From assembly GCA_950295325.1 (NCBI GenBank), contig OX485807.1, positions 1,366,501 to 1,430,500 on the forward strand: a stretch of DNA of 64,000 nucleotides. Reading direction: 5' to 3'. Position numbers and translations under genes: made by a program. The notes beneath the pieces are model-generated. The model did no database searches. It saw only the letters and a program-made list of their open reading frames with translations, and was not told the DNA's origin. Source of the DNA: Polytrichum commune. Its lineage: Eukaryota > Streptophyta > Polytrichopsida > Polytrichales > Polytrichaceae. Of this stretch, positions 15,133-51,107 are shown in pieces. The first letter of the stretch is position 1, and each line of letters begins with the position of its first letter.

Positions 15133-16104
15133 TGTCGCAACCCTTGCTAGCTCCATTAACAATCTAGCCAATTTTTGTTTCTAGCAAAGGTTACGAGCGC
15201 TAACCCTTCGCATTCCGCCATGTTAATGGTTAGCTCCTCCTACCACGGATCTTATAGTTCATAAGAGGGGAACCAACCGTCCTACTTTGCTTTCGGGACT
15301 CACCCCTTAATTGGTAACCAATTCTTCAATGTGAACTTCCATCCATGGAAGTCCAATCTTATGTTGATCATCGCATTGCCGAAGCAATACTACAACAACT
15401 TGAAGCATACTAGGCAACTATGGCCTCAAATTAGGCCAATGCCCATGGAGGCCGTGCCGTTCGGCCTCGGTTGGATGAGGTCACACCACCTCACCCATAT
15501 AAGCCTCTAGGACTCTAGGCGGGACCCCTACCCAACCGTCAAGAAACCTCTTGTCTCTCTACCAAGAGTTGGGGCCAAGTAGACATTTTCCCTTAGACGC
15601 TGGGCCTAAAAGCCCCTAGCAGCTTCAGACCATCATAACTTCCTTGTATTATGTCTGATGCGAACACATAACCACTTCATCTTCATGTACGCTTCACGTA
15701 GATGCCGATGGACTCCTCACTTGCCCCATTCTGCCAAGTATTGAGGACAATATGCCTGTTCAAACCCTTAGCAGTCGCGGGAGTCACTCCCAGGCCACTG
15801 CTGTACCAGGGCGCTGTCCCAGACAGCGCCCTACTCAAATGGCCATAAGTCCTAGCTCACACCTCCGATTGAGGTGATTTTGAGCATTCTAGAATCACCA
15901 CGTCATGAGCTACGCATAGCTCATGGCCTTACCCTCATGCCTCCTAGTCTCTGTGGATGGGAGGCGTTTCCAACGCCCGGGCCCTCACCCACATTAGGAT
16001 CACATGGGCCCTCTCACCAACGGCGCCACAAGTCCCAAGTGTCAGTCCCGGGTCCCCCTTGTGTCCATGGTGTTTCAAGCACTCCTCATCAAGACGTGCG
16101 CAAG
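15133..16104 (+). mobile_element. Gypsy-type LTR (copy C), near full length
   Basis: About 972 bp, collinear with the 994-bp solo LTR at 16312-17305. Starts TGTCGCAACCC and ends near GCGCAAGA, a mutated form of the expected GCGTAACA. No matching 5-bp target duplication was found, so it does not mark a clean insertion and probably reflects a rearrangement. Followed directly by decayed DUF7869 coding sequence. Confidence 0.6.
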
Positions 16105-18261
16105 ATGTTGTACACGATACAATACCGGAGCCTACCGGATGGTTTCCTTGTGTGGCGCATTGATGCGGATGGAAAAATGATGTTACAGGATGGCGAGCCT
16201 AGGCCTTGGGAGCCAATACCCATGAAGAATTTGGAAGATATAGGAAAAATGCATATTAGGCTTCATACAATATTGGAAAAGTTTGAAGATAGCGGATGTT
16301 GGTGGATCATGTGTCGTAACCCTTGCTAGCCCGCTTAACAATCTTGCTAATTTTCATTTCTAACAAAGGTTACGAACGCTAACCCTTTGCATTCCGCCAT
16401 GCTAATGGTTAGCTCCTTCTACCCCGGACATTATAGTTCATAAGAAGGGAACCAACCTTCCTACTTTGCTTTCTGGCCTCACCCCTTAATCGGTAACCAA
16501 TCCTTACATGTGGACTTCCATCCATGAAAGTCCAATCCTATGTTGATCATCACATTGCCGGAGCAACAATATATCAACCTGAAGAATACTAGGCAATTAT
16601 GGCCTCACATTGGGCCAAAGCCCATGGAGGCCGTGCCGTTCGGCCTCGGGTGGGTGAGGCCACACCACCTCACCCATATAAGCCTATAGGATTCAAGACG
16701 GGGCCCCTACCCCACCGTTAAGAAACCTCTTGTCTCTCTGCCAAGAGTTGGGGCCAAATAGACATTTTCCCTTAGACGCTGGGCCTAGAAGCCCCCAGCA
16801 GCTTCAGACCATCAAAACTTCCTTGTATGATGTCTGATGCTAACAAGCGACCACTCCATCTTCATGTACGCTTCACGTAGATGCCGATGGACTCCTCACT
16901 TGCTCCATTCGGCCAAGTATTAAGGACGTTATGCCTGTTTAAACCTTGGCAGTCCCGGGAGTCACTCCCTGGCCACTGCTGTACCAGGGCGCTGTCTTGT
17001 ATTAGGGCTCTGTCCCATACCAGGGCCCCACTCAAATTGCCATAACTCCTAGCTCACACCTCCGATTGAGGTGTTCTTGAGCATTATGGAATCTGCACGC
17101 CATAAGATAGTACGCATAGCTCATGGCCTTACCCTTTTGCCTCCTAGTCTATGTGGGTGGGAGGCGTTCCCAACGCCGGGGGCCCTCACCCACACTAGGA
17201 TCAATTGGACCCTCTCACCAACGGCGCCACAAGTCCCGGGTGTCATTCTGGGGTCCCCCTTGTGCCCATGGTGTTTCGGGCACTCCTCATGGAGAGTGCG
17301 TAACATTATGTTGGGATCGTTACGGGAGTTGGATACAATATTGGACACGTGTTCGTGGCGCCTTGGCAGACCTTCACCAAGATACCCACTTACTTTGAAA
17401 CATGTATTTTGGCCATAAACATGTGTCGATTTTAAGCATCAAAGGCTAGTCTTTTGGCAAATAGAGAGGTTCGTGAGGAGTTTGATTTGGACGACCATTA
17501 CGTCGGGCCTGTTAGTAACCGTCCCCCACCATCTTTCCACATTGCAGTGGATTGTCATGAAGGGTATATGCTCATTTTGTGTCCTGAAGATGACACATAT
17601 CCAAAGCCAGTGTGGGTGGCAAGAGCTTTATCCAAACCAAACTTTGCAATTTCCAGCTCTTATTTTTGGCAAATTCAGATGGAGTACTACCAACTGACGG
17701 CATGGAATGAAGATGTGATTCGACATTACACGGACTGGTATACAAACCCTAATTTTTGGTGGAAGGTGGATTCTGAGCACGGTTCATCTTAAATAGACAC
17801 AGATTCCATATTCATAGCATGAAAACCATGGAAAAATCATACTGGATTAATTTCCATCCTTCAAAAGTACATATATTTTGCAAAAAACAACCTTGCTCGG
17901 ATCGAACAAGAAGCATGCCACGATGAATGAGAAGTTGGTGTAACTATAGTAGACACATATTAGTCATGTGTGTGCTCTTCAAAATAGGGGGAGAGTGTGG
18001 GTTGAACTTAAGAACGCTCCAACTTCATTGGGGTTGGATGAATATTCATATATAATATTTTATAACAAATGTGAACTTTATTTTATTATTTATTTTGGAA
18101 CTAAATTGTTGGGTTGAATGAATATGCATTTTTTGCACGACGCTTCCAAGGTCGTAGTATTTATATTTTACTTCACATGCTAATAATAACCAACATTCTA
18201 TATGATTTCTTTCACGAGGTTCGTTTCAAGTACTCTACCCTTGTGGTTCTGTTGGTGAAGT
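16105..18261 (+). pseudogene. Decayed DUF7869 gene and downstream flank of an older large element
   Basis: The plus-strand protein pieces at 16105-16311 (FLVWRIDADGK, MKNLED) and 17306-17930 (YGSWIQYWTRVR, REEFDLDDHYVGP, DCHEGYMLIL, VWVARALS, DVIRHYTDW, NPNFWWKVDSEH) match the C-terminal half of the protein encoded at 34203-37267. It is split by a solo LTR at 16312-17305 and has stops and frame changes. The matching 3' flank runs to 18261, parallel to 33840-34200 of the intact element. The N-terminal half and the terminal repeats are missing. Confidence 0.75.
16312..17305 (+). mobile_element. Solo LTR (copy D), 994 bp
   Basis: Begins TGTCGTAACCC and ends GCGTAACA, so TG...CA. Flanked by a 5-bp duplication TCATG at 16307-16311 and TTATG at 17306-17310 (one change). 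The intact paralogous sequence at about 34826 (minus strand) reads straight through this site. This is the best-defined copy of the LTR family in the window. Confidence 0.85.
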
Positions 18262-19126
18262 TGGTTTCAAGGACTGCATATAGACACATAATTCATTGGG
18301 CGAGGGACTATGTTTGCAGCAACTGATGTTAATTGAAAGTATTTAGCTACTTGACCCATTTTCACATTTTTATAATTGGATGGAATGGCAACTTTTAAAA
18401 TTTGGTGTTACACTTCTTTGCAAATATTTTATTTCTATATTTCAAAAATTTAACTATTGACAACTTAGAAAAGAAAGTATAGCTATAGTTCAAGTTCATA
18501 GGTAAACTCTATGCATTTCAAATGCAGCTATTCTCTAGTTGTATGAATGAAGAAAGAAACTCAAAACTTATCCAAAGAGCAGATGTGCAACATATTCAAA
18601 AACAAATGGATGTACAACACAATTAAAGGTTACCAAACTCTAATCACTTTACTAACTGACTTTAGAATGAGAATATAGTAATGACAGTGATAATAAGAAT
18701 AATAAGAATAGTAATTAAAATAATAAGTGCAAGTATTATATTTTTATTTATAATATTTATAAACTCTTAGGGCATGTTGCAAGAATTTAATTGATTGGTG
18801 ACATATTTGTTTGTAATTAGTTTATTTTATTTTTTATAGTCAAAGATCACAATTCACAATAAAACTGTAGTATATAGTGAGGTTGTTATCTAGTTGCATG
18901 TGCAAACTAACATTCAAAACCCATGCAAAAAGTCATGCCATGTGCTATCCCTCCCTCCCCCTGTGAATTTACTAAATATTTAAAGGTAAATCTCTCAACT
19001 CAAATGAAAGTAGAAATAGTACATGATTTGATAATAAGTACATGTATTTCATATTTTAACTCTTCCTACGGGAATGATGTATGAATGGGCCTCCTATGTC
19101 AATGAGGTGGAAAATGGGGTTGCATC
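18262..19126. repeat. DUF247 unit copy II, 3' flank
   Basis: Matches about 5870-6560 and 58220-59070, which lie downstream of the other two DUF247 genes. AT-rich, no gene. Confidence 0.6.
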
Positions 19127-27516: not shown

Positions 27517-27523
27517 TATAACA

Positions 27524-32519: not shown

Positions 32520-33670
32520 GTTCAAGTTATGAGCTACTTAGCCCTCACATGGGCCTCACATTCATGTAAGTGGATGCAATGTGAATTTTGTAATTTTGGT
32601 GTTAGACTTGTTTGTAATTTTCTATCTATTTGTGTAAAACTAATTTAAGATCTAGTTATTTTACAAATTATGAAATAAACATTACAGTTCAAGTTCATAT
32701 GAACTTTTCATTCATCCTTTTAAAAAAAATTGTTCTTTTCCTCCGAAGCTTGTACATCGAAGGCCCATAGAAGGTCACTAAAACTCGAGCAATATTTCAT
32801 GTTTGAGGTGTTGCTTATTGCAAGGATTGGCCACCTTTAGGAGTGTGGACAACACCTTGAGCCAAAATTATTTCAAAATTGGCATTCAAGTTCATTATGA
32901 GAGACATGGTTCATATTCGGTAAATGAACTCCAATCACCTCTACAATAGGCAAATGAACTTTACATTTGAAAAACCAAATTCAAACATAGATGTCTTTTG
33001 ATATACATAGTTTGAATATGTTCTTTTCATCTAAATCCATGAAAAAAATGATTTTCACTAGCTGCCCCAACTTGAGACTTCAACTTCACAACCAATATTG
33101 AATCTTCTCAAATTTTGTGGAAACAAAAGATTTCTTCCCATACATTCACAATGGAGTTGGTTTTCACATATAATCATAAAATATATTAGGGCGCAACCAC
33201 GGTCAAGTACATGATTCCATTACCATGCACAATTTAACTGAAAGTGATTCAAAACTATATACTAAATTTGAATTTTTAAACAAAAATTTTTACAAACATT
33301 TGAAAAACACATTGATCGAAAAATCCAAGAAATTTTTGTTGATAAAATATTTTTTAAAATAAAATTCTACATATTTTAGAAGGCGGTGCAAGTAGTGTGC
33401 AAGTGGATATATCAAGCATGTAATTGTGTAAAATTTGTTTAAAACATGATAAATTACATTAAATTCATGTGTTGTACAATTTCTTGTAATGGCACCCTCA
33501 AGTTTATAATGAATTCAAGGAATATGGAAAAAATTCCAACTTCAAAATAGTTAAGGTCATGAAATCTACATCCAAAATTAGATTCAGCCATTACCTTTTG
33601 AGCAATACTTTTAATGATAAGTTTTGAAGATCCCATTTTGATATCCTATATTTGAGTACCTAACACAACA
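32520..33670. repeat. DUF247 unit copy III, left part
   Basis: Collinear with 1-1135 at high identity. Ends at the left terminus of the 15.8-kb element; the last four bases AACA (33667-33670) are repeated at 49510-49513. No gene. Confidence 0.75.
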
Positions 33671-33698
33671 AACACTATATTCGTTAAATTGAGACTTT
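33671..33698 (+). repeat. Left terminal inverted repeat of the large element
   Basis: 28 bases perfectly complementary to 49482-49509. It is followed by a short local inverted pair (TTGAGACT with AGTCTCAA, 33690-33711). Likely transposase recognition site. Confidence 0.85.
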
Positions 33699-34202
33699 CT
33701 CTAGTCTCAAATTAATATATGGATCAAAGAACTTGAAGAGGCCCGAAACTATATTGTCAACAATCTCAATTATATCATATGTTCTAATATCCCAAATCTA
33801 TGATGTGCGGACATAAGCACATATGGTAGAGCACTCGACACCAACTTCATCAACAAAAACACATTGGGTAGAGCACTTCAAACAAGTTTCACCCAAAAAT
33901 ATATATAAAATGATTTCTATTATTAGCATGTTCAATAGAATATAGACATTGCAACATACAAAGTGCATGTAATAAATGTATGTTTCTTCATTCGAGAATA
34001 TAGTCCCAAGCATAATAATAAGATGAACTTCAATTGCAGCTTGAAATATAGTAAATGGATATTCATCCAACTCCAAACAATATAGTATTCGTAAGTTCTA
34101 CCCAAACTCTGCCCCAATTTTGAAGAGCACACATATGTGTAATTTATATTGCTATAATTACGTATTAAACTATAATCATGCTAACACAATCCTACCAACT
34201 TC
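33699..34202. other. Left subterminal region of the large element
   Basis: AT-rich, no gene and no palindrome copies. About 33841-34200 is the part also preserved beside the decayed DUF7869 gene at 17931-18261, and probably contains the 3' untranslated region of the leftward gene. Confidence 0.5.
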
Positions 34203-37200
34203 TCATTCAACGTGGGTTGCTTCTTCTGCAATCCGAGCAAGGTTGTCTTTTGCAAAAGTTATGTACTTTTGAGGGATGGACACTGATCCACTATGGTGTT
34301 TCCGTGGTTTCCATGCTATGAATATGGAATCTGTATCTACCCAAGATGGACCGTGCTCAGAATCCACCTTCCACCGAAAGTTAGGGTTTGTATCCCAGCC
34401 TGTATAATGCCGAATCACATCTTCATTCCTTGCTGTCGGTCGATAGTACTCCACTTGTATTTGTCGAAAATGAGGGCTGGAAGTTACAAAATTGGGATTG
34501 GACAAAGCTCTTGCCACCCACACTGGCTTCGCATATGTCTCGTCTCCAGGACGCAAAATGAGCATATAACCTTCATGACAATCCACTGCAATGCGGAAAG
34601 ATGGTGGGGGACGACTACTAGCAGGCCCCACGTAATGGTCGTCCATATCAAACTCCTCTCGAACCTCTCCATTTCCCAAAAGACTAGGCTCTGAAGCTTG
34701 TACATCGACTCGTGTTTGTGGCCAAAATCCATGCCTCAAAGTATGAGGGCTATCTTGGTGGAGGTCTGCCAAGGCGGCACGAACACGTGTCCAATAATGT
34801 ATCCAACTCCCATAACGATGCCAACATGATCCGCCAACATCCGCTATTTTCAAACTCTCCCAATATTGTATGAAGCCTGATATACCTTTCAAAATATCCT
34901 CCAAATTCTTCATGGCTATTGGCTTACAAGGCCTAGGCTCCCCATCCGGTAACATGGTCTTTCCATCCGCATCCACGCGCCACACAAGAAGACCCTCCGG
35001 CGGGCTCCAGTCTTGTGACGTGCACAACAACTTGTATTGCATGGCCGGGACACCATCGTCACGCATATAGAAGCGGAATTGTTGTGCCTTCGTATGCCCG
35101 ATCAATCGGTGAGCTCCACTTCGAATATAAGGTTCTATAAATGCCTTGAAGTCTGGCACCTCCTCAATCATATGGGGGATGACGGGAACGTTCTCCAAAT
35201 CCATGTACGACTTCATCAATAATGGAATTGTAGGGAAATCCTCCTCCCGCAACTTCATGCTCCACCGCCCAAAAGATGCATCAATATCATCGTGCGTGTG
35301 GCCTACCAATAGGAAGGACACAAAAACCTCCTTGAAAATGCCTTTCGCAACCAACAACGACCAATATGCAAATACATATCTGCTTTTATTGTCCTTGGCA
35401 CAATTGTCCAATTGGACACGCAAAGTTGGAGGCAACTTCTTGGCAATCACGGGTTCATTGGGTGGCTCGGGCAACGAATGCAAGCATACATCTTTTCCAT
35501 CCAACACCGCTTCATATAAAGGTGTTGAACCCGTGTTCTCAAATAACAATCCTGAAGAATAGGCTGGTGGTTTCTCTAAATCACGTAAAAGCCTTGCAAA
35601 TGATCCTATCGTGTGGTTTGAATCCGCTGGATACAAATCAAGAGCATAATGAGCAAATTTGACATCACCGTGTCCATGTGCAATCATTCCTGCAATGCCA
35701 ACCCAACGTGATTAGCATCTATGTATGAATAAACCATTATGAAGGAATCCATGTTCTCCAGTACATCACGGAATAAAATACAACAACATTTAGGGTATGT
35801 CATGACATTGTTTCGAAGTTCACCTGTAACCGATACAGGCAACTTGAAAAACCCATCCGTGGCCTTGATTCGATTTGCAAAACATGGGGAGGCTGTTTTG
35901 GCATGGTCCATTTTGTCATGGATGACCGTAAGAACCTCCAAGGGCCTGGAGATGGACAAAGCTCTATTTGTGTAGTAATCATTACGGTGTGCCTCTTGCA
36001 TGTTTACGTGCTTGAAATAGTTCAATTGATGCGCTGCATATGACTCGGTGCCCATCGTGTGTGCATCCCGGAGGCGCTTCAACTTCTCGCAATTAGAGCA
36101 CCTGGCAAATTTGTCCCCTCGTCTTTTTGTAATGTATTCGCTAAAGTTTTGTTTCTTGATTGCACTCAATTTTGACAATGAAATTGGCTCCAACCCAATC
36201 TTCTCGCCAACTGCATTAACGTCCAACAATATGTCTTTCCATTTTGTGCCTGTGGGAAGAACTTTCTCCACAACCTTTTCACCGGTTGTGAGTGTGCGTG
36301 TTTTGTGCGGCATTGCATCGGCAAGAGGGACAATGATGGTTGCTGGAGTGGCCGTTGCTTGCCTTGTTGCTTCCCTAGGCTTCTTTAAACCCACGTTACC
36401 ATGGTGACGGGACCGGCGGCCTTCCTTGGCATAAGCAGCTTGTCTATAAAAGTCCGATTTCGACACACCGTGAATGGTGTACCATGCCTTACAACACACG
36501 TCTATGCTTTCAATGGTGATGACCTTGCGACCCGTCCCATTCACATGTATCGCCCTATGGACATCAAGTTTTCTTGTGGATCTTAGACGGAAATCTCCAA
36601 GCCACATTTCTTCGCGGATGACCTTCAATTTATCCCTTGGAAACAATTGGCAACAACGATGCACACAACAATCCTTTGTGGCAACTTCTCTAATGGACTC
36701 CTCCCCGAGCAACCTTTGACGTTTACAATCAGTTGCAGACGGAGCAGGACGTGCCAATGTATCGTACTTTCTTTGACCCTTGCGCGGCCGCATGTTTGAT
36801 TGTACCTCCTTTTCGATTTGCATGTGTCGTTGCTCATGTTCACGCAAGCTAACTCCATCAATTGTGACATTCCTCAATGGCCACCTGCGGAGGGAGAACC
36901 TATGAGTGGGATCCACCTCGGAATGAACGACCGACTCCAATATGACAACCCCAACGTCCTCAGTGCCAAGCGGGTTTTCATCAATGCAATCTTGCGGATG
37001 GGTGTTACGGCAAATCCCCTCCGCCACAACAACTCCACTATCGTTAAGAAGTATCACCTCCAAATTCACCCACGAAGCCCTTGAAAGTCCCGTACATTCA
37101 ACAATGGGACACTGCGGTACGGAAGACGAAGGTAAATCCAAATGATCTTCATCCGCACTGTCAGCCATAGTAGCCTCCCCGACAATGTCTAGGTCATCAT

Positions 37201-37267
37201 CAGATGCAGATGGCCAAGTGGCCATGTCATCAGATGACCAATCCCCTATTTCACTAAACCCATCCAT
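34203..37267 (-). CDS. DUF7869 transposase-like protein, 976 residues, two coding exons
   Basis: Exon A runs 37267-35824 and exon B 35689-34203, both on the minus strand. The 134-bp intron is GT...AG (donor after GTTACAG, acceptor TTGCAG), and splicing gives the continuous block SVTGMIAHGHGD and an in-frame total of 2931 bases. The N-terminal third is acidic and unrecognised. The middle has a basic stretch, a C-x2-C pair (RCSNCEKLKR) and VIHDKMDHAKTASP with a candidate first catalytic Asp. Exon B has RVQLDNCAKDNK (second Asp) and LVGHTHDDIDASFGRW (last acidic residues), an RNase H-like layout, followed by a DCHEGYMLIL to WKPRKH domain possibly binding chromatin. It matches proteins annotated DUF7869. 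A splice acceptor two bases before the ATG implies a 5' leader intron. Catalysis is inferred. Confidence 0.75.
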
Positions 37268-37480
37268 TCTGCCTACACACATGAACATTGAACATTGTCT
37301 TAAAATCACAAAAATTGTAGGTTCAAATCGAAGAACAAAAAAACCATCATATATAAACAAAATTGCAAATACTCAGTGCTCATACAAGTTCATATGACTG
37401 CTATGCCATTGGGCTTGTAAAGGTTTCGGAAGGCCAGTGGCCACACCGACACCCAGATCCCAACCACACTTAGAGGCTGG

Positions 37481-38439
37481 GTTTGGGTCGAGCGACCCAA
37501 ACCTTTTGGGAGGATGGGTTCAGGCTCAATACAGAGAGCACCCACACTTAGGCGCTGGATTTGGGTCGAGCGACCCAAACCTTCTGGCAGGATGGGTTTA
37601 GGCTCACTACAGACAGCATCCACACTTAGGGGCTGGGTTTGGGTCGAGCGACCCAAACCTTTTGGCAGAATGGGTTTTGGGTCACGACAGGGAGCACCCA
37701 CACTTAGAGGGCTGGGTTTGGGTCGAGCGACCCAAACCTTTTTGCAGGATGGGTTCAGGCTCACAACAGTGAGCACCCACAGTGTAGGGCTAGGTTTGGG
37801 TCGATCGACCCAAACCATGAGGCAGGATGGGTTTAGGCTCACAACAATGAGCACCCACACTGTAGGGCTGGGTTTGGGTCGATCGACCCAAACCTTGAGG
37901 CAGGATGGGTTCAGGCTCACAACAAAGAGCACCCACACTGTAAGGCTGGGTTTGGGTCGACCGACCCAAACCATGAGGCAGGATGGGTTCAGGCTCACAA
38001 CAGTGAGCACCTACACTGTAGGGCTGGGTTTGGGTCGATCGACCCAAACCATGAGGCAGGATGGGTTCAGGCTCACAACAGAGAGCACCCACACTGTAGG
38101 GCTGGGTTTGGGTCGATCGACCCAAACCATGAGGCAGGATGGGTTCAGGCTCACAACAGAGAGCACCCACACTGTAAGGCTGGGTTTGGGTCGACCGACC
38201 CAAACCATGAGGCAGGATGGGTTCAGGCTCACAACAGTGAGCACCCACACTGTAGGGCTGGGTTTGGGTCGATCGACCCAAACCATGAGGCAGGATGGGT
38301 TCAGGCTCACAACAGTGAGCACCCACACTGTAGGGCTGGGTTTGGGTCGATCGACCCAAACCTTGAGGCAGGATGGGTTCTGGCTCAATACAGAGAGCAC
38401 CCACACTGTAAGGCTGGGTTTGGGTCGACCGACCCAAAC
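37481..38439. repeat. 78-bp tandem array with 13 palindromes
   Basis: Thirteen 22-bp palindromes, TTTGGGTCG-NN-CGACCCAAA plus an outer pair, at 37481, 37559, 37637, 37716, 37794, 37872, 37950, 38028, 38106, 38184, 38262, 38340 and 38418. Spacing is 78 bp (once 79). The central pair is AG in the first four and AT or AC afterwards. Intervening sequence is GGCAGGATGGGTTCAGGCTC-like. Because 78 is a multiple of three and stops are absent, long frames run on both strands (up to 326 codons); these are artefacts of the repeat. The array begins about 210 bases upstream of the DUF7869 start codon, probably inside or upstream of its leader intron. Confidence 0.95.
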
Positions 38440-39060
38440 AATTCCGCAAAATCCGCCTATTTATTCGGGTGATGCTCTATTAATCTATTTATAACCTATT
38501 TGGGACAACTGAACTCATAGATGCTTGTTGTAATTAGCTGCTCATGAATGGAAGCGTATACAAACCGTGTATTACAGCTCCAACTTAGAGAGCTTGCAGC
38601 AATCTCAGGATTGGGACATGAAAGAAAGAACCAGCATTTGGGGGGGTTGGGCTCTTTATACTACCCGCCTCCGCTTTGGGCATCCTCTTTGGATGCCTTT
38701 CCCACCTGGTCTCCTTTGGATGTTAATTCAAACCTTCTGACTCAATTTCCCGCTTCTTGTCAATAATAGAGAATGTATATTTAGCTTGGCTCTTCGTTGC
38801 CCCAACCACCAAATGAATAATTCAACATATATTTAAAGTTGTTACCACCCTAACTTGGTCAACACTATTCTTCAACTCTTTCATAATTAGTTTTATACAT
38901 GAATACACCACCACTTTCCCTATTGCCATCTCCTTTCTCCTTTTATCATTGTTGTATATTTTTCTCACATCCTTACTAATACTAAATCCCTATATGTAAC
39001 TTCCATATATCACCATAGTGGATATTTAGTGTTTGAGTTTACATTTAATGTTACTTACTC

Positions 39061-39196
39061 TCATAGGGTTAGTAATGGGAAGTGTATGCGTTCGTTTTAA
39101 GTGTATCAAACACTAACTATCATATAACTAAAAAGGATATAAAGGTTTTGATACACTACATATGAACGCATACACTGAATACCAATAACCCTATGA
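39061..39196. repeat. 136-bp foldback (MITE-like)
   Basis: Arms start TCATAGGGTTA on both strands and share AGTGTATGCGTTC and TGTATCAAA blocks, in mirror positions. The right arm lies at about 39145-39196. No coding capacity. No clear target duplication was identified. Confidence 0.6.
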
Positions 39197-40011
39197 CAAT
39201 ATGTAAGATTATATCTATTAAGGGGTTTTACTCTACTTGTAGTCAAACATTATGGTATATTTCAAACAATATATTGACAAAAGATGTGCATGTATTATAA
39301 AACTTCATATACTAAAAGTCACTAAATATAATAGTTAATGCTATTATTTAGACTCTCACATGAGGACTTATATTTTGAAAACAAATAATTAATGCCATGA
39401 CAAACTTGAATAATTTGGCCAACTTTCAATTTCTGCTAATTAAAAGAACATATGTTGTGTTGTAATGTGTGCACCCAATATTGCTTCATCCTCAAGACTC
39501 CAAGTGTGACAATAACCTAGTACCTATGTGGAAGTCATTAATGGAACCCTAAACCACAAATGACATTTGGCACGTTCAATCTTCCAAGGATGTTTGAACC
39601 TATCGTGAAGTCCCTTGAACTCTACCAATGTGTGTGAGCAAAACATGCAAAGTTCAAAAGGTATGTCCTCATATCATTCACAACATGAAATCTACTTTAA
39701 ATTAATATATAATATTTCACTATTCCAAATAACATGTTAACATGAACAACATCCTATCCATTATAATCTAGTTCTTATGCTTTTCTTACCAGGTGACAAG
39801 GTTATAGGTTAATATTGTATCACCTACTTGTGAGCACAATATCGTTTATTTCCTTTAGTGCGTTCATTCGTGAAAAACCACACATCCATCTTTCACGTTT
39901 GTGAATTAGGATGTTGTGATGACAATATACATTTGTATTGGAAACTACAAGCACCAAGGCCCATGTCATTTGACCTATGTGCCATCCAGTTATGGTTTGT
40001 GTTGTTTAAGG

Positions 40012-40032
40012 TTTAGGGTTTAGGGTTTAGGG
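40012..40032 (+). repeat. Interstitial plant telomere-type repeat
   Basis: Three perfect tandem TTTAGGG units followed by a degenerate TTCAGG. This is the canonical land-plant telomere unit and a hint to the kingdom. Too short to say whether it came from telomere repair or chance. Confidence 0.7.
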
Positions 40033-40672
40033 TTCAGGCATCATCAAACATCAAACTGAATGTTTAAATGACTTCATATGATATGTGAACTCCATGGGGT
40101 TGCAGTAGATACATTTGTAATCATTTGTTTCTCCCATGTACTTCAAATGTGAACTTCTAAGTACATATATTAATGTTCACTCTAATGCTACTTGTTAGGG
40201 TATCCATTATAGACTAGAGCATTGTCCTCTACCAACAACCATCATATAAATTACAATACATAATCCTAAACTGTTAACCATGTGAATGGTTACCATATTT
40301 ATATTATTGCACCGTGTAATTGCCTTTGTGGATTGCAATATAATTATGACTTACTCCTCTTAGACTTTGTAACACTCTCATATGATTCCATAAATTACAT
40401 TATTCATACACCAAAACGATAATGGCTACATTCAACGATGTTATCAATTCCAACGGGTGATCATTCAATTGAACACCATTAAAATATGAGTTGGTGATGG
40501 TGTTAATTTTGTGGAATACCTTAGTCCACGTAGGTTTTTGACTGGTATTGAATTGCCGCTAATGAATAGCGGGTTAGAAGGCCGGGGCCGGGCGGCCAAG
40601 AGAGGCGCCGGCCCTCCTATGTCCCGCACCTAGGGGCAAGGACAACCAGGAAGGCAATCTCCCTAGGGTGGC

Positions 40673-40756
40673 AGGTGTCAACACCACAAGCCTCGCGGGC
40701 AACCACCTAAACCAAGGAGGTGTTGACACCTGGCAAGGTGTTGGCCCGCGAGGCTT
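40673..40756 (+). promoter_or_regulatory. Interleaved inverted repeats upstream of the ParB-like gene
   Basis: Two perfect 13-bp inverted pairs are interleaved. AGGTGTCAACACC (40673-40685) pairs with 40719-40731, and AAGCCTCGCGGGC (40688-40700) pairs with 40744-40756. The order A-B-A'-B' would allow a pseudoknot in RNA or alternative hairpins. It lies in a locally GC-rich stretch (40575-40780) just upstream of a pyrimidine-rich leader. Function unknown. Confidence 0.6.
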
Positions 40757-40789
40757 TTGAGCCGTTGATGGGCCCGGCGCAATCTAATG

Positions 40790-41416
40790 TCCCGGATTCG
40801 AGGGTTTAGGGTGACCCCTTCCGCTCTCTCCTTCTCTCCCCTCCTCTTTTTTCTTTCTCTCTTTTTCTTCCTCTCTTCCTCCGCGCCAAGCGCCGCTCTT
40901 GGAAACGCCGCCGCCGCTTTCCATAGCGCCGTGCCAAGCGCTTCCTCTCGCACCTTTTGCTTTTGTCTTGGTCGCGCCGCTTCCCTTCATTCTTCTTTCT
41001 CCTTCATTCCTCTCCTCCTCTCTGATGCTTCTCCTCCTCTTCTCTCATTCTATTCCTCGTGTTATTGTCTTCCTCTTCTTATTCTCTCTTCTTGGTCCAG
41101 AGTGTTAGCTTTGAGTGAGTTCGGAGCGGTTTATTGTGTTGAACTCCTTACTTGTTTTGTAAAATTCATGCATGGAGTGATTTTAGGTTGAGTAGAAGTG
41201 AGCACGGTCGAGTGTGATAGAAAGGTAGAGGTCTTTCAAATTAGGCCTGAGTTTGCAAGAATCAGGGGGTTTGTGAGAAAGTTTTAGGGTGCTTGAGAGA
41301 TTCATTGTGTTTCTGAGATCTTTGTGAGAGTTGTTCTTTAGTGCCACAACAGAGTTTCTGAGTCTGGTTGTAAGAAGCAGATTGTGAGAGCAGCTTTCAA
41401 GAGTTTGAAAGACAAG
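40790..41416 (+). other. Probable 5' leader exon of the ParB-like gene
   Basis: A pyrimidine-rich stretch (40820-40880 and 41000-41090) is followed by a sequence ending in a good splice donor, GACAAG then GTAAGC, with the intron starting at 41417. Frames across it are short and not continued in frame into the next exon by any evident start, so it is called untranslated. The transcription start was not located. Confidence 0.45.
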
Positions 41417-42502
41417 GTAAGCAATTTGCATCAGTGCACACAATTTGCATCATTCCCTTTAGGTTCCTGTTACATATACAATGCATAAGCATTGTATATG
41501 TTGCCCAAGCATTAAACATGCATCTGGAAACACAGTAGTTTGGGGAGACGACCCAAACTCATATTAAAATATAATAAATATTTGAATTGCAGCCTAAAAT
41601 GAACTAAAGGTTTGGGTCGTTCGACCCAAACATTGCAGCCTCTTGTTTGGGTCGAGCGACCCAAACATTGGAGCCTCATTATGTTTGGGTCGCTCGACCC
41701 AAACATTACAGGGAGAAGAACTAAACCACATTGTAAAATATAAAAGAACTTCAAAAATTAAGTAAATGTTTGGGTCGTTCGACCCAAACATTGCAGACTG
41801 AAATGACTGGGTTGAGGTACCTAAATTTGCAGCCTAACATGTTTGGGTCGCTCGACCCAAACATTACAGGGAGAAGAACTAAACCACATTGTAAAATATA
41901 AAAGAACTTTGAAAATTAAGTGAATGTTTGGGTCGTTCGACCCAAACATTGCAGTCTGAAATGATTGGGTTGAGCTACCTAAATTTGCAACCTAACATGT
42001 TTCGGTCGGTCGACCCAAACATTACAGGGAGAAGAACTAAAGCACATTGTAAAATAAAAGAGAAATTTGAAAATTAAGTAATTGTTTGGGTCGTTCGACC
42101 CAAACATTGCAGTCTGAAATGAATGGGTTGAGCTACCTAAATTTGCAGCCTAACATATTTGGGTTGCTCGACCCAAACATTACAGGGAGAAGAACTAAAC
42201 CACATTGTAAAATATAAAAGAACTTCCAAAATTAAGTAATTGTTTGGGTCGTTCGACCCAAACATTGCAGTCTGAAATGAATGTGTTGAGATACCTAAAT
42301 TTACAGCCTCATCATGTTTGGGTCGCTCGACCCAAACATTACAGGGTGACCACCTAAACCACACTTTAAAATCTAAAAGATCTTTTAAAACGACTTTGAA
42401 AATTAAGTAAATGTTTGGGTCAATCCTCCAAATGTTAAATGCACATTGCAATACTTTGGGTCGATCGACCGAAATTCACAGTTTCGATTTCTTGGATTGC
42501 AG
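41417..42502 (+). repeat. 5' intron filled with a 158-bp tandem array of palindromes
   Basis: Intron bounded by GTAAGC at 41417 and GATTGCAG ending at 42502. It carries palindromes of the TTTGGGTCG-NN-CGACCCAAA family at 41610, 41645, 41683, 41768, 41841, 41926, 41999, 42084, 42156, 42242, 42316, and decayed ones near 42412 and 42458. TT-centred sites repeat at exactly 158 bp (41610, 41768, 41926, 42084, 42242) and CT-centred sites at the same step (41683, 41841, 41999, about 42157, 42316). Thus about 4.5 units each contain two palindromes. 158 is about twice the 78-bp period of the other array. Confidence 0.9.
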
Positions 42503-45500
42503 ATGGCCCCTAAAAAGAGACCAGGTGAAAGGTGGTTCATGCTCGCGCCAGACCACCTTTGGCAGGAGTATGAAACTCCACAGGACGATTCTTACGTCCC
42601 AAAAGATGGCGTCGTTTTGGCATGGTCCGTTCAGGTGGTGAAGGCATCCATGTTCAAGCTGCTATTCGTGGTGAAGGTGGGGACCCACGAGCAGCACACC
42701 TGGGCAACGCTGACGGGATGGGAGGTTGCGTCCGTCCAGTCTCTCGGGAACTACGTAGACGTGATACTGGAGAACTCCGCCGTGCAGAACGTCCACATGT
42801 TCATGCACCAGTTCTCCGAGCCCTTCGACCCCCTGTACGCCAAGGAGACTTGCGTCGACCCTGAAACCATAAAACCGGAGGCCATATTCATAGATGGTAG
42901 TGTAACGAACACGAAGGTTGCGAGCAGGTTCACGAAGTTAAAACAGGCTATCACGGTTCTCAACAAGGCGCTGCAAAGCAAACCCAAGACGCAGCAGCCT
43001 GTGAGGCGGAAGGCAACGACGGAAGAAGGCGCAGGGTCCTCAAGACCACAAACTGTGAGGAAACCGCGGGCGGTCCCTGCAGACTCGAGACGGACGAGCA
43101 CTACAACAACGCCGGCTGACAGCGAGACGCCAACGCCATCAGGAAGCCGTCAGACGACCCCTTCCAAGAGGGGAAGAAAGTCATCGGGGATGACTGACGA
43201 GCCTGTTTCCCCGGAGCTCCGGATGCCGAAGCCTGGCCAAGAAGTGGATGCAGGCGAAATACAAAAAATAAACAACAACTTCGAGACAAAATGCCTGCAC
43301 TGCTTCTTCATGGGCAGGGACTTCAAATTCGAGGTCAACATTGCGCAGTGCCACCTTGCGCCACCAGAGAAGTGCGTCCGAGCCAAGGAGGACGCCTACG
43401 TCGACTGGATGGTCGCTCAAATCTTGGGCGGGCAGTTCAAGGACGACAGGCAGACAATTGTTGTCATGCCACAAGGGCTGAAAAGAATGCCAACGCCTGA
43501 GATGTGGCCGACAATCTCTAAAGGAGACTTCTGGCTGATTGACGGGCAGCACAGTGTGGAGGCCTCGAAAAAAATCCAGCTGATGACCGAGTGGGACGAC
43601 CCGAACAACCAGAAGGAGAAGCTAAAAGTTTGGAAGGCTTTGGTGGTTTGGTCGGACAACGAGACGGTCCTCAGCGACATCTCCAGGTTCTTCAACATGG
43701 GGAACAAAAAGAGGGCCTATCAGGCATCGTGGATCAGAAACATCATGGCCTCGAGGGAGGTGTGGGAGTTTTATGGAAGGCCTCCCAAGGAAAGGAAGAG
43801 TGTTTTTGAAAAACACGAGACGGGGGACCTCATGGACCCCGACACCGGCATGCTCTTCAACCAGACTACGCGCTTCAAGCAAATGAAGCCTCTGGTGAGG
43901 GAGTTCTTCAGAGCGCTTCAAGGTCTCTCCGAGACAGAGATGGGAAAAGCGGCGTCCCACATCCTACACGTGGAGACGACGGCGAAGAGATGCTGGGTCC
44001 ACCCTAAGATCGTCTTCACCAAACCCAAGATCTTCGTCCCTTCATGCTACACAATGAAGGAATGGACGGAGAACAGGAAGAAGAAGACGACCATCGTCCA
44101 GGAGCTGCACAAGCTTGTGCCAGAGAAGAAGCTCATCGTGGACGGAGAGGTCGACGAGGCGCACTGGAGGGCCTTCAAAGCCGAATATAAGTTTACCAGT
44201 GCGTCCATGGCGGCACTCATGAGGGAGGCGGGAGACGACTTCCTCAGATCCAAGCTCGTGAAGGGGGGGAGGAACCGGGCGCTTCCCGAACACTCAGTGC
44301 GGGCCTTCTCCAACTTCATAAAGGAGAAGAAGATCGTCAGTTTCGAAGGCGATGCGCAATTCAACATGGTCACTGTCGAACCTCTCAGGATCCAGGGTTG
44401 GCCGGGTTCTGAGTCAAGGAAGGCGATCAGGACTAGAGCCGGGGACCGCTTCCCCTTCGGAATGATAGACTTCAGGAACATCCCTGGAGCCTCATTCGAG
44501 GGGACTATGAGCACCCCTTTTTACGATCCTTTCTTGTCGAAGTTCGTGGACTACGCCAGCCCCAAATTCAGGGAGGTCGACGTCTGGCTCTGGATTGTCG
44601 AGGACAGAAGGGCAGAGCAGGTTTACGAGATCGTGCGCAAATTGCAGCCGGAGTATGCCGTCTCAAAATCTCACTACGTTGCTGCACCGGCGGAGGGGGC
44701 GTACAGCACGCTGAAAGACAAGAAGACGAAGATCGTCAACGTGCTGTGTTTGTACTTCGTGTACAAAGCTGAGCTGCTTAAGGTGCCAAACCATCCCATA
44801 GCCAGGATGGAAAAGCTCTTCCAAGTCCAAGAAGGGTTGGGTACCAGCAGGAGCTTATATGACGAGGCGAAGTACGCCAACTACCCCGCGGATGAGCTGC
44901 GCATGGAGTTCTACCTGCGGATGATGAGGACCCTCACGAAGAGAGGGGACTGCATCTTCAACGTTTTCGGGGGGTCCAAACCGATTTTTGCAGCCATGGT
45001 AAGCAGAAAACCCAGAAGTCCCTATACGTTCGGTTTGGGTCGAACGACCCAAACTAGGGGCATGCACAGTTTGGGTCGAGCGACCCAAACTAGGGCCATG
45101 CATAGTTTGGGTCGAGCGACCCAAACTAACTATTCTTATTTTGTTTGGAAGTCATTTTCCATTATATGTTCATTTGGTGTTACTAATAGTATTGATTTTG
45201 ATTGTGCAGATGTCTGGGTTGAACATCTACTCCTATGTAGAGGATGCCGATGTTCAATTCTACAGGACCCAAAAGGCGCTGGCCAAGAGAATGGACATCC
45301 TCGACTGGATACCCGGATCCTACGTCGAAGAGATCGTCGAGGGGGGCGAGAATCCTTTGGATATTGCGAGGCGAATCAACCCGGGTGAATTCGCCATGCG
45401 GGCCCCCGTTCAATTGCCAGAGCCGCTCATCGGGTTGCATCCGGGCAATCCGTCTATGGGAGCAGGTGGCAGGGTTGGGGAGGAGGGGGAGGAAGACGAG

Positions 45501-48500
45501 GAGGAGGCGGAGGAGGAAGCAGAGAAAGTGGAGGGGGAGGTGGAGGAAGGGGCAACAGGATTCACTCAAGAATCCGAGGCCCCTCAGCGGAAGAAGGCCA
45601 TGCGGCCTGCCACGCCGCAGAGCAGGCTGGTGCCCGCGTTGACGGTGGACGACGCCAAGGATATGTACTCGAGGGACGCGACGGCCACCTTCAGGGAGCG
45701 TAGAAGGATGAAGGGGAAGAAGCTGTACGGGGACTATGCGGTGGAGGAGACGATCGCAATAAGCTCCGAGGACGAGGACGACATGGAACTCGCCAAGAAG
45801 TTGAGGTCTGATCCTGCCTCCCCCAGAGCGTTCGCCGGGAATGTGAGGGTGAAACCGGAGGTCCTCACCGTGGAGGAGGCGAACGCAAAAATGCTCCGAG
45901 ACGAGGAGCAGCGTGTGCGACTGCAGAGGGCTGCCGCCGAGGAACCCTCTGTCCGCAACGAAGTCGCGGAGTTGAGGGCTCTCCTGTTGGAGCAGGAGCG
46001 GCAAAGGGCGATGTCCCAAACTCCGTCCCAAGCGGACCTCATCACGCAAGTGATCCAGGGCATGCTGGCGCAGGGATTGGTGATGGCTCCCCCGAGTTCA
46101 TTCCCTCACTTGCCCGCAGGCTTCCCTCCACAGGATATCCGCCCGCGGCCGGCGTTGGAGCATTCCTTCAGCTTCGCGGATTTGCTGCAGCCGCACGCCC
46201 GTCCTTACGCGCCTGTGCAGCAGGTGGATGATCCAAACCTTTGGCGCGTCCCCGGAGCGTCCAGCTCGTTGGCACCCCCCCCCGCTCCGGCCTCCCATCC
46301 TCTTGCCCCCACACCACCAGCGGGACGACCCCCACATGTTTGGGTCGTCCGACCCAAACAGTGCCGACGTTGCAGCGTCGCAGAGCGACCCTCGCCAAGC
46401 AGCAGGGTTTGGGTCGGCCGACCCAAACCCCGTCCCCCATCAGACCCCGGTCGACGAGCCTATGCTAGATGTTGAAGGCCCGCAAGGGCCTGGTGATACC
46501 TCTACTCCTAACCCAGTCGATGAACCAATGCATGATGCGCATGCGGAGGTTGGGTTGGGACAAAGGCCTGACAGTCAGCCTTTGCAGGAGCAGGTTGCGG
46601 CTGACGGCGTCGTCGGAGGCGGCGGTGACAGAGGTGGGGCAGCGCACGCGATGCCGGCATCAACGTCGTCAAGGCACGACCAAGGCGAGGTAATGCACTG
46701 ACCCCACTCAGTTTGGGTCGGCCGACCCAAACTTCCTGGGTCTTTGACTTCTTGCCTTGGTCGTGTCCCCTAGCTAGGACGAACTTAGGCCCCCCCCGGC
46801 ACTCGCGCCCTTCGTCACCCCCAGCGACCATTCGTTCGTCCACCTACCCCCGGCTTTGCAACGAAGTCTTCATCACGGCGGCCCGTCTCTTCAATTTTTT
46901 CTAGATGTAGAAGTAGGCTAGTTTGAACGCATCGTTCAACGCGGCTCCCCCAATCAAGATGTACATAGAGCATTGTATATAATATAATCACCATTTTTGA
47001 CTCCTATATACTTGTATATTGTGTTTGAATGTATTTTGTATGCTCTTGTATCCCTTGTATCCCTTGTTGCACCCCCTCCAAAATGAATCAAATGCTTTTG
47101 TGTTTGCACCGAGAACGCTCGTTTCCTTAATGCTTCGTTTGGACATAGCATGACATAAGTCGCCCCCGTTTTCTCTCGCTCGTATCCGCAGGGCTCGGAG
47201 CATAGCGTAGCGGCTCCCCGACGCTCTTCCCCAAGGAGCGGAGAGGGCAGCGCGGCGGCGCCCCCGGTTTTACCCGCCCCGCCCCCGCTGCCGAAGAAAC
47301 GATTCCTGGTGTTAGACCTGAACGGGGTCCTCGTCCAATGCGTTCATTGCCCTAGGACCCCCACGGTGCCCTTTTGCAAGCCCGAGGACGCTAATTACGA
47401 CGGGCCGCCCACGTTCATAAAGAGCAAACTAGTTCACCTCCGCCCGTGGCTTCGGACCTTCCTCCAGATCGCCCAACAACGATGGTGGGTGGTCGTGTGG
47501 AGCTCCATGACGGCCGAGAACACCAATGCGGTCGTGGAGTTCATCTTCAAGGGCATCGAGCCCCCCTGCATGGTCCTAGCACAGGAAGCCTGTAGAATAT
47601 TGTACACACAGGACGGCAAAGTCGTCAAAAAACCAAACAACCCCGCTTCCCCCCAATACCTCAAGGTCTTGAAGCCCATTTTTTGGGACCAGCGACCGTC
47701 CTTGATAGGCGTCCCCTACGACGTCCGCCCCACCCGCGAGAACACGCTCATGGTGGACGACAGCGCCGCAAAGAACATGTTGAACCCGACGGCCAACTTC
47801 ATAGTGTGCCCTACGTGGACGGTCGAGAAGGTCCGGGACCGATTTTTGTTAGACCTTAGTAAATACCTCCAGGCGCTCTGGGGAAGCGGACTTCCCGTAA
47901 ACAATTTTGTTAGGAATAATCCCATAGGCGAGAGATACTTGGATCCACGAGACCATTTGTACAGAGAGTTGTTATCTCACGCGAAATTTAACAAGCTCAT
48001 TTGAGACAGTACGTGTGTTTGTATGTGTGTGTGTGTATATGCGCCTACCCATTTTGTGTAATTTACGCTTCATATGTATCTTGATTTTCACGCGCTCTAT
48101 CTCCCCCCTTTTCCTTGGGTTTTGTTTTGTTCCAATTTTGGCTCCAGCGTTTGGAGCCCTCGATTGACGTCGTCAGCGAGTCAGACTTGGGGAGCTTCTT
48201 CTACGAGACCGTTTACGACGCCGCGTCAACCATCGACTACTCCAAGGAGCCTCTTGACGCCGGCGTCGTCGATAGCCCCCCACCCAAGCAAATCTTCCGG
48301 CGATCTGCGTCCCCGTCACCGCTCAAAGGCATAAATCGCAAATGCGTCCGGACATCCCCCTCTCGGCCCGGCGGCAGTAGTACACCTCAACGGCGGCTGC
48401 GGATGGATGCTCGGCCTACGAAGAGTGGAACCCTTCCTATTCCTTTGCGGGATGCCTTGCCCCTCCTCGCCAACTCCGACGGGAACGCCCCCGGTGACAA

Positions 48501-48960
48501 GGTGAACCCCCCCCCCCCCCCAAAAAAAACATGGTTATCCGCGCATTACAATCATTTTGCACTTAAAAAATGAATGTGTGACACGTTTGGGTCTTCCTCC
48601 CTAAACTAACACATGTGTTCTTGCGTTGACGCGTTGCAGGTTGCTCCCACCCGTAAACCTATGCGGTCTAGTGCGTCCATCGAGTTGGAGCGTTTCTACT
48701 CCATGACCAGAAATGCAAGACAGTCCACTTCATCGTATTCGAATTCTTCGTCGTATAATTCGGGCGGCCGACGGAATACAAAATGTGTTATTGATGGCGT
48801 TCACCCCAAGAATGGCTATAGTCGCGGGGCGGAGATTTTCAGGAATGTTGAAGCAATGCGAGCAAAAGAAGCTGCAGCAAAAGAAAAAGAGGCAAAAGAA
48901 AAAAAAAAAGCAAAAGAAAATGAAGCAAAAGAAAAAGAGGTAGTATCCGAGGCTAGATAG
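42503..48960 (+). CDS. Multidomain protein: ParB-like, methyltransferase-like, coiled coil, FCP1-like HAD
   Basis: Phase-0 exons: 42503-44998, 45210-46223, 46321-46689 (acceptor uncertain), 47192-47896 or to the stop at 48004, 48148-48501 and 48640-48960. The ATG follows the intron acceptor directly. Residues 1-160 form an unrecognised domain and 160-250 a basic Ser/Thr-rich linker. A ParB-like region has DGQH at 347-350 (FWLIDGQHSVEA). Residues about 640-870 resemble a beta-class DNA methyltransferase: the FNVFGGSKP loop joins MSGLNIYSYVED across the second intron. The expected catalytic DPPY is absent (IDFRN instead), so it is probably inactive. Then follow a Glu-rich tract, a coiled coil (RDEEQRVRLQ to LLLEQERQR) and an FCP1/NIF-like HAD domain with LDLNGVLV and MVDDS. 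The last exon ends in a Lys/Glu-rich helix. The exons are GC-rich in an AT-rich setting. Confidence 0.7.
44999..45209 (+). repeat. Second intron with a 36-bp array of three palindromes
   Basis: GTAAGC donor at 44999 and TTGTGCAG acceptor ending at 45209. Splicing is phase 0 and joins two halves of the methyltransferase-like fold, which supports it strongly. Palindromes lie at 45033, 45069 and 45105, at a 36-bp step, with AA, AG and AG centres. Confidence 0.85.
46224..46320 (+). other. Third intron, boundaries uncertain, next to two palindromes
   Basis: A donor CAG-GTGGAT at 46224 and acceptor CACCACCAG at 46320 restore the reading frame. Other in-frame acceptors are at 46383 (GTCGCAG) and 46587 (TTTGCAG). 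The palindromes at 46338 (TC centre) and 46407 (GC centre) are coding under the first choice (FGSSDPN, FGSADPN) and intronic under the last. The repeated VDEPM motif downstream of 46440 looks coding and argues against the last choice. Confidence 0.5.
46690..47191 (+). other. Fourth intron of the ParB-like gene
   Basis: GTAATG donor at 46690 and ATCCGCAG acceptor ending at 47191, phase 0 on both sides. Contains one palindrome at 46711-46732 (GC centre). The rest has no features. Confidence 0.7.
47897..48147 (+). other. Fifth intron or alternative 3' end
   Basis: The acceptor at 48147 (a long pyrimidine-rich run, then GGCTCCAG) is good and the following exon has no ATG, so it should be internal. 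The only well-placed phase-0 donor before the TGA at 48002-48004 is GTAAAC at 47897. Skipping it leaves the HAD domain ending at 48004, with a tail that still looks coding (NNFVRNNPIGERYLDPRD). Two isoforms are possible. Confidence 0.45.
48502..48639 (+). other. Sixth intron of the ParB-like gene
   Basis: GACAAG-GTGAAC donor at 48502, GCGTTGCAG acceptor ending at 48639, phase 0. Begins with a C homopolymer then an A run, and contains a decayed palindrome near 48583 (GTTTGGGTCTTCCTCCC). Confidence 0.65.
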
Positions 48961-49082
48961 GCCATAGTAGGCGTAGGGTTTTGGGCCATAGGCAAGAACA
49001 TTTTGGGTCGCACTATCCAATGCATGTGTGGTGTTAGCATGATATGCATTTTACATGCCACACTTTGTATGTTTTTTTTTTG

Positions 49083-49375
49083 CAATAATACAAGTTAGAC
49101 ATGATTTCCCCTTCCATATGGTCTAAGGTTTGGATTGCCCTACCTAAACCATCACAAATATGAGTTTGGAATATTTTGTATGCAATATTATATTGGTTAA
49201 CATATTAACCCTTCAATAAGATCTATGGTTTGGATTGCCCTACCTAAACCATATTCATACAAGCTCTAATATTTTGTGTGCAATAATATGAATGTTTTAA
49301 GGTTTCCCCTTAAATGTGGTCTAAGATTTGGATTGCCCACCCTAAACCATCACAAATATGAGTTATTTATGGGGT
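49083..49375. repeat. Subterminal repeats of about 100 bp at the right end
   Basis: Three units with the imperfect palindrome GGTTTGGATTGCCC-TACC-TAAACC at 49127, 49227 and 49325, each followed by AAATATGAGT- or CAATAAT-like sequence. They look like decayed relatives of the main palindrome, placed 130-380 bases inside the right terminus. Possible subterminal protein-binding sites. Confidence 0.65.
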
Positions 49376-49481
49376 TCTTGGTCTAAACACCTGCTTCAAA
49401 GTGTTCGCATCTTACAACTTTCTCCAATATGTGTTCCATTTATCCTTGTTCTTATTTATGTGAATGTCTCAAAATGCCCAA

Positions 49482-49509
49482 AAAGTCTCAATTTAACGAA
49501 TATAGTGTT
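49482..49509 (-). repeat. Right terminal inverted repeat of the large element
   Basis: 28 bases perfectly complementary to 33671-33698. Followed by AACA and then the sequence found at 1140 onward in copy I. Confidence 0.85.
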
Positions 49510-51107
49510 AACAATAGAGGGAGCCATATAAACTACTTAACTTTGCTACTACCTTTAGGAGTTTGACCAAAAGAAATATGGTTTTAGTATATTGGATTGT
49601 GCTTGCTCCCGTTTGTAGTAGTGCATTGAATTGCCCTCAACATCAAGGGTGATATGAAACTTACAAGTTCATTGGAATGCACCCCAAAACAACAAAGGTT
49701 CTAATCATTTAAACTTATACATGCAACACATTCATCACCAAATAAATACACCCTCCCCCCCCCCCCCAAACCCATATTGAGCATCTCATAATAGTTTTCT
49801 TGTACATGGTGACAATAAGAATGAAATCATTGAATAATAATAATAATAATAATAACTCATGGTAGTTTTGCTTTCTACTTGGGCATGTTATGGGAATTAG
49901 ACTAATATGTGAATGAGGAGAAATGGGGTTGCATCTCATTTGAACCAATGACAAATACATACGAAGTATTGGGTTAGTGTGCCTATTGTGACAAATTGGG
50001 TGGAAGAAAGGTCATGAATTAACAACCTCAAGATTTCAAATCGGAACTCATTTTCTCAAAGCATTCCATATTTTATCAATTTTTGGCAATGCCATGGAAA
50101 ACTTTACTTCAAGTCAATTTTACAAATTTGGGAATTGTTATATTCTGAGGCTTAAATGCATGTCAAATGGGGGTGTCCATGCAAAACTTCCCTTCAAGTG
50201 AGGTATGCTTATTCGGAGCCCTTGACGTAGTTATGCATGGTTAATTGCAAGAGTGTCACAATGAATTTACCAACCAAAAAAGTGTCCTTCACAATATGAG
50301 AGGAAATAATCGCATGCAAGTGTGCCTCTCATTCATCCATATTAACAATAACATATGTCTTTTGTATGTTTGTGATTAATTTATTTCAAACATAATCACA
50401 TCCAACTAAATTGGGGGTTTTGTAGCTAATTCCAACTACAAAATACTGAAATATTGTAACTTGAGACAATCTAAGCTTGAAATTTTATCAATCTTGCTTA
50501 AATATTGTCATTAAAGTTCTTGAGGTTTGCAAGTTTTTTAATTTTTTAATTTTTAACCCCTAGGCCAAGTGGAACTAGTTTCTATAGGAGGTCCAATAGT
50601 TTTCAAAATTGGATGAGATCCAATGGAGTCAGAAATTCAAGCATGAATGGGTTGTTCACCACAATATGCTAGACAATTGAGTCTCAAATATTGTTTTTTT
50701 TCCCATTCTTATTCTTAGTCAACTGACAATTTAACAAATCCAACAAACAATGTTGGCAATGTTGAGCTTAGATTGGATTTACTTGGTCAACATGCAAAAT
50801 TAGTTGTCAAAAGGGCATTTCATTTATTTGATTATTGTGCTAGTTTTTTTGGATTGAGAAACAATCAAGACTTGTAGGCCAATTAATAGAATTGGACTCT
50901 AAGTTGAAGTACATAAACTCTAATACTTATGTGACCATGTTATGTCATGTTTGAATGAACTGTTGATTTAAATCCAATTCTTCGATACCACGATGACAAA
51001 ATTTTGTATTCTTCTTCTATTTTTCATTTTTCATTTTTTTGTTTGCAAAAGTATGTGGGAAGAGTTAATGCTTTACATGATGTCCATCAAATTTGGGGCC
51101 CTTCATT
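49510..51107. repeat. DUF247 unit copy III, middle part
   Basis: Collinear with 1136-2763. AAT microsatellite near 49833-49855 and a C homopolymer near 49755. No gene. Confidence 0.7.

Follow-up and report, generated by a model that had tools for sequence, protein, structure and literature searches.

A 15.8-kb moss DNA transposon with a DUF7869 gene and arrays of a 22-bp palindrome upstream of both of its genes

The whole stretch of DNA analysed here, a 64,000-base window of Polytrichum commune contig OX485807.1, contains a 15,839-bp insertion at 33671..49509, which is bracketed by perfect 28-bp inverted ends with AACA on each side and carries a DUF7869 gene on its left, a right-hand gene, and arrays of a 22-bp palindrome upstream of the two. 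An earlier note on this DNA, made from its letters alone, had proposed a transposon with these boundaries and flanks and had pointed to a copy of the host unit that lacks it, and both proposals were borne out. Copy I of the host unit, at the start of the window, aligns with the left flank (1-1138 against 32522-33670, 91.9% identity) and with the right flank (1135-3560 against 49510-51915, 91.7%), and when compared with the joined flanks it is 91.6% identical over 2,727 columns; at the insertion site, where this ~92% identical copy has a single AACA, the two differ by exactly 4 extra bases. The inverted identity stops after 28 bp, with base 29 differing between the two ends, and beyond it the outer 730 bp on the left and 909 bp on the right have only three matches in common, of 11-13 bases. 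At ≤3 mismatches the terminal 28-mer occurs twice in the window, namely as the two ends, and not once in 100 shuffles. Because terminal inverted repeats (TIRs), a target site duplication and an empty site are all present, 33671..49509 is a TIR (class II) DNA transposon that has inserted cleanly. Its host is a plant, since DUF247, which Pfam describes as a 'plant protein of unknown function', was matched by open reading frames (ORFs) in the host flanks (E 1.6e-46, 2e-35 and 2.9e-12). A duplication of 4 bp is the reading with symmetrical ends, while this single copy would formally also allow ACA (3 bp) or AACAA (5 bp), in which case the ends would be slightly unequal.

The left gene was modelled with one 134-nt GT..AG intron, whose splice sites were picked by eye, and in this spliced form its 976 codons are open without a stop. 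The spliced protein matched DUF7869 in Pfam with an E-value of 3.3e-44 and 151.2 bits, compared with 146.2 bits for the second exon alone, and this was the only family listed for it among 24736 Pfam models (matches listed up to E 10, with search filters that discard most matches above E ~0.1). The DUF7869 gene described earlier is thus upheld. Acidic residues are found at D451 (VIHDKMDHAK), D576 (VQLDNCAKDNK) and D615/616/618 (GHTHDDID), and because their spacing is DDE/D-like the DUF7869 protein is likely to be a transposase of the DDD type.

The palindrome GTTTGGGTCGNNCGACCCAAAC was found at 34 sites with ≤4 mismatches to its 20 arm bases, all of them inside the element and none in the rest of the 64-kb window; 27 are exact in the arms, 31 have ≤3 mismatches and 3 have 4. 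By place, 13 of the 31 lie upstream of the DUF7869 start codon and 12 upstream of the right-hand start codon, with three in an intron, two in a coding-like stretch and one beyond it. The palindrome system described earlier was thereby confirmed, and the position of most palindromes in front of the two genes suggests self-control by the element. Tandem arrays within the element have periods of 78, 158 and 36 bp, and in the two long arrays we compared, by permutation, how many alignment columns vary in the palindrome arms and in the remainder of the unit. For the 78-bp array we aligned 12 of the 13 sites, leaving out the incomplete 13th unit and not counting the two central bases of the palindrome; this was 1/20 in the arms and 24/57 elsewhere (p 0.0007), with 1/20 and 20/57 in the first four units (p 0.005). 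For the 158-bp array, where 8 of the 12 sites were used and the irregular ones at 41610, 41645, 41683 and 42454 left out, it was 3/40 and 30/115 (p 0.0057). When the 40 bp around seven representative palindromes were compared over 21 pairs in both orientations, identity was 10-38%, approximately the level of chance. One motif therefore appears to recur in several unrelated contexts, which is the pattern that selection on a binding site predicts. RNA folding of the array in the right-hand promoter was also far more stable than that of 20 shuffles (z -14.2), but an RNA function was not concluded from this, as repeated palindromes must fold in such a way.

The earlier note had described two divergent multi-exon genes. 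While the left gene holds up, with its open frame and one modelled intron, the right half may contain more than one gene, as the 832-aa ORF with its second exon is followed by a separate NIF/FCP1-like ORF and two small ORFs. In the second exon the coding signal (scored with training on the first right-hand exon alone) shifts to another frame near a run of nine C at 46275-46283, which may reflect a sequencing error, a mutation or an unseen splice. The NIF ORF matched Pfam NIF with an E-value of 3.8e-15 and a score of 56.4 bits (cut-off 21.8), and also the NCBIfam dullard-like model (E 2.9e-08), yet below the cut-off of the latter. NIF/FCP1 phosphatases have the catalytic motif DXDX(T/V), from which this ORF departs with DLNGV. 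Other Pfam matches were weak and under cut-off, with Thioredoxin_11 in the NIF ORF (E 0.0084) and TAF1C_HB in an ORF at 46084-46701 (E 0.022). In the right half, GC content is 55% for the first exon, 62% for the second and 57% for the NIF ORF, compared with 38-40% for the host flanks and 47% for the DUF7869 gene (34206-37268, intron included). This higher GC content would fit acquired cargo without proving it.

Table 1. Coordinates, in the 64,000-base window, of the element, its empty site and a related relic
Feature	Position	Strand	Remarks
Left terminal inverted repeat	33671..33698	+	28 bp, AACACTATATTCGTTAAATTGAGACTTT
Right terminal inverted repeat	49482..49509	-	28 bp, perfect inverted copy of the left end
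Target site duplication, left copy (AACA)	33667..33670
Target site duplication, right copy (AACA)	49510..49513
Empty site in host copy I (one AACA)	1135..1138		Alignment of copy I to both flanks
DUF7869 gene, 976 aa	34203..37267	-	Exons 37267-35824 and 35689-34203 (stop included); intron 35823-35690
13 palindromes GTTTGGGTCGNNCGACCCAAAC, 78-bp tandem array	37481..38439	.	Starts 214 bp before the start codon of the DUF7869 gene
12 palindromes	41610..42475	.	Directly upstream of the right-hand ORF; 8 in four regular 158-bp units
First right-hand coding exon (832-aa ORF)	42503..44998	+	By eye, DGQHS stretch (ParB/DGQHR-like) and FGGS stretch (methylase-like)
Right-hand intron, 211 nt	44999..45209	+	GT..AG by eye; palindromes at 45033, 45069 and 45105
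Second exon, while the frame stays open	45210..46475	+	Acidic, low complexity; coding signal changes frame near 46275-46283, so this 3' end is provisional
Exact palindrome between second exon and NIF ORF	46711..46732
NIF/FCP1-like phosphatase-fold ORF	47159..48004	+	Pfam NIF match; first motif DLNGV
Two small further ORFs	48085-48573, 48610-48960	+	Downstream of the NIF ORF
Subterminal repeat	49074..49358	.	98-bp unit in ~3 copies; GTTTGGATTGCCCTACCTAAAC at 49128 and 49228 as degenerate palindromes
Decayed DUF7869 relic, outside the element	16101..18271	+	16101-16312 and 17305-18271; 79-84% DNA identity

Outside the element, the DUF7869 relic has stops, frameshifts and an inserted repeat, and has no recognisable terminus. 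It is split by a ~995-bp repeat (16312-17306), of which other copies lie at 15133-16106 and, partial, at 12150-12906 and 13781-14360 (inverted). Element and relic differ at 22, 18 and 27 sites in codon positions 1, 2 and 3 over 164 codons, counts in which we saw no clear sign of constraint. As judged from its sequence, the relic shows that the DUF7869 gene family was once present in more than one copy, and it says nothing of the kind for the whole element. Diverged copies of the host unit with DUF247 genes lie at 1-9975, 18268-22004 and 57933-62060, with a nearly full-length DUF247 domain in one ORF at 59073-60638. The surroundings also contain a retroelement polyprotein at 53-56 kb (RVT_2, rve and gag_pre-integrs), which we take to be Copia-type, a hAT fragment at 22.2-22.9 kb, and ~0.9-1.2 kb repeats at 23629-28421 which, at 94-98% identity, are closer to each other than are most copies of the host unit. 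In the central spacer of the element, 38828-39217 is hairpin-like and partially matches 63425-63509, and is perhaps a small nested element.

On balance, we favour an autonomous cut-and-paste TIR DNA transposon with DUF7869 as its transposase and a right-hand protein that binds the palindromes to control or protect both promoters. Given the anatomy of the element, the DUF7869 protein, as a DDD-type transposase with an RNase H fold, would bind the ends and excise the element, which would then be joined to its target with a 4-bp stagger. The protein of the right-hand gene would bind the palindromes as a dimer and, once bound, might control the promoters of both genes, or protect them from silencing, as VANC does for the VANDAL transposons of Arabidopsis.

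Several points weigh against this reading. There is no second complete copy of the element in the window, and the DDE-like assignment of DUF7869 is based on motif spacing. AlphaFold without an alignment was uninformative both for the exon-2 core of the DUF7869 gene (34968-35687) and for 43253-44998 in the right-hand ORF, with mean predicted local distance difference test (pLDDT) scores of 32 and 31, respectively, and a sequence search of the PDB gave no relative of the DUF7869 protein, the only two matches being at E 0.86 and 1.4. The last eight units of the 78-bp array, which are the most alike, varied at 0/20 arm columns and 9/57 others, a borderline result (p 0.053), p was 0.074 when the 158-bp array was first tested in a misaligned form, and the permutation takes columns as independent, though tandem units have a common history. 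The palindromes at 46338 and 46407 sit in a coding-like stretch, whereas VANC21 motifs are described as mainly non-coding (PMC5735166). Finally, besides the right-hand protein, the transposase and a host factor are candidate binders of the palindromes, and nothing singles one out.

A serious contender, which we hold to be quite possible, is that the element is simply a Sola transposon of large size, with the right-hand genes as captured passengers that have no role in transposition and the palindromes bound by the transposase or a host factor. Sola elements are described as having a DDD transposase, 4-bp duplications and TIRs of 11-1124 bp, with some exceeding 15 kb, and as being present in Physcomitrella and seemingly uncommon in flowering plants (PMC10741241). 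The element resembles them in its 4-bp duplication, its likely DDD-type transposase (here by motif), its TIR length, its size of >15 kb and its moss host; thus the earlier suggestion of an element outside the recognised superfamilies is not shown. There is also a precedent for passengers in Sola2 elements, which have captured Fanzor1 genes (PMC3627910), and the GC content of the right half, above that of the host flanks and the DUF7869 gene, is in keeping with this explanation. However, the 4-bp duplications quoted for Sola2 are AT-rich (AWWT and similar; PMC3627910), unlike AACA here, and the mean length of curated Sola1 elements in bivalves is 5,445 bp (PMC10294476), so that 15,839 bp is large for Sola. 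Neither the second gene nor the palindrome arrays have a counterpart in the descriptions excerpted from PMC10741241 and PMC3627910, and the right-hand gene, too, has palindromes clustered before and inside it, which argues for a functional link instead of a passenger. On these descriptions Sola is the best lead for the family of the element, as compared by description rather than by sequence, and we have not filed it as Sola.

We regard it as unlikely that the DUF7869 lineage evolved its own means of anti-silencing or self-regulation independently of VANC, in which a large protein with ParB/DGQHR-like and defunct methylase-like domains of prokaryotic type would read a 22-bp, CG-containing palindrome repeated ahead of both genes and in an intron. 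As read by eye, FWLIDGQHSVEASKK in the right-hand ORF is ParB/DGQHR-like and CIFNVFGGSKPIFAAM is methylase-like but degenerate. The DGQHS stretch of the ORF resembles, also by eye, ParB/DGQHR box II, and perfect palindromes in arrays are reminiscent of parS. These likenesses would also suit palindromes that are partition- or centromere-like sites of a ParB-type protein, derived from a prokaryotic replicon or a virus and not concerned with promoter control, which we consider very unlikely in view of the searches that follow. Pfam, NCBIfam and PADLOC gave no ParB or DGQHR profile for the right-hand ORF (with weak, unrelated matches to Rhomboid_N, E 0.13, and MPN396, E 0.022) and no N6/N4 DNA methylase profile for the right-hand gene (one unrelated match, E 0.14), and PHROGs gave no match to the ORF. 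Likewise, a sequence search of the PDB returned nothing for the right-hand ORF or its ParB-like segment, one match at E 0.46 for the methylase-like segment, and none at 0.01 for the NIF ORF. The 'ParB-like' label that the large gene had been given is therefore a motif seen by eye, which found no support in profile or sequence searches.

Searches for relatives elsewhere were similarly negative. Viral contigs gave pattern matches, yet neither the DUF7869 second exon nor the right-hand ORF had a relative there that could be confirmed, and there was no exact match to the element end or the palindrome. Prokaryote contigs, queried with the right-hand ORF and the palindrome, gave no confirmed relative of the former and no exact copy of the latter. 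Using tblastn, the right-hand ORF had no match in phages or plasmids, while its ParB-like segment had none in phages and one in plasmids at E 4, which we took as chance. In phages, the only set used for the next two queries, the methylase-like segment matched four records at E 1, also taken as chance, and the DUF7869 second exon had no match. PHROGs returned one match to that exon at E 0.16, to a family with no assigned function, and Rfam returned nothing at gathering scores. This absence of viral, phage, plasmid and prokaryote relatives, where searched, is as expected of a plant element. In a full-text search of an open-licence library, no paper was found under the name DUF7869, alone or with transposon; ParB with adenine methyltransferase gave bacteria or phages only (by title and abstract), ParB with transposase and moss only bacterial papers, and Sola with moss and giant only endogenous giant viruses, while for ParB-like proteins as cargo there was nothing using 'parb-like'.

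It is also very unlikely that the arrays arose from slippage alone and that the palindromes are without function. Tandem repetition at 78, 158 and 36 bp, and the borderline conservation in the last eight units of the 78-bp array, are what slippage could leave, but one and the same palindrome occurs in contexts unrelated to each other, and in both long arrays its arms are less variable than the remainder of the unit. Least probable of all is a CMC (CACTA/Mirage/Chapaev) element, which is disfavoured. In its favour, the ends contain CACTATA, with CACTA at terminus position 3, and Chapaev makes 4-bp duplications. Against it, CMC termini begin with CAC at the duplication, whereas the empty site here puts two bases before CACTA inside the element; the left protein matched no CMC transposase profile among the matches listed from Pfam; and the second and third acidic residues are 39-42 apart, a spacing that is longer in CMC.

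DUF7869 is a Pfam domain without known function, and its link, at this locus, with an element that has precise boundaries and an empty site makes a role as transposase directly testable. Among known systems, En/Spm (CACTA), in which TnpA binds subterminal motifs, is alike in its two-protein logic, in having binding motifs near the ends and the promoter, and in CACTA near the end. It is unlike in duplication length and transposase family, and the ends here begin with AACACTA.

The closest mechanistic analogue of the palindromes is the VANC motif arrays of Arabidopsis VANDAL transposons, whose layout is closely parallel although the motif differs. VANDAL elements are of Mutator type, with VANA21 as the transposase gene of VANDAL21/Hi, whereas here we found a 4-bp duplication and DUF7869. 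The comparison with VANC was by Pfam, where no match came up. VANC21 binds the 9-base motif YAGTATTAY, in place of which there is a 22-bp palindrome here, and induces loss of DNA methylation; its motifs are tandemly repeated ahead of VANA21 and within introns of both VANB21 and VANC21 (PMC5735166). Both are plant elements with several genes and a short, element-enriched motif, which is tandemly repeated upstream of a gene and found in introns (PMC5735166). The palindrome arrays may thus provide, beside VANDAL, a second and independent test case of plant transposons that escape or tune silencing via a tandemly spread short motif.

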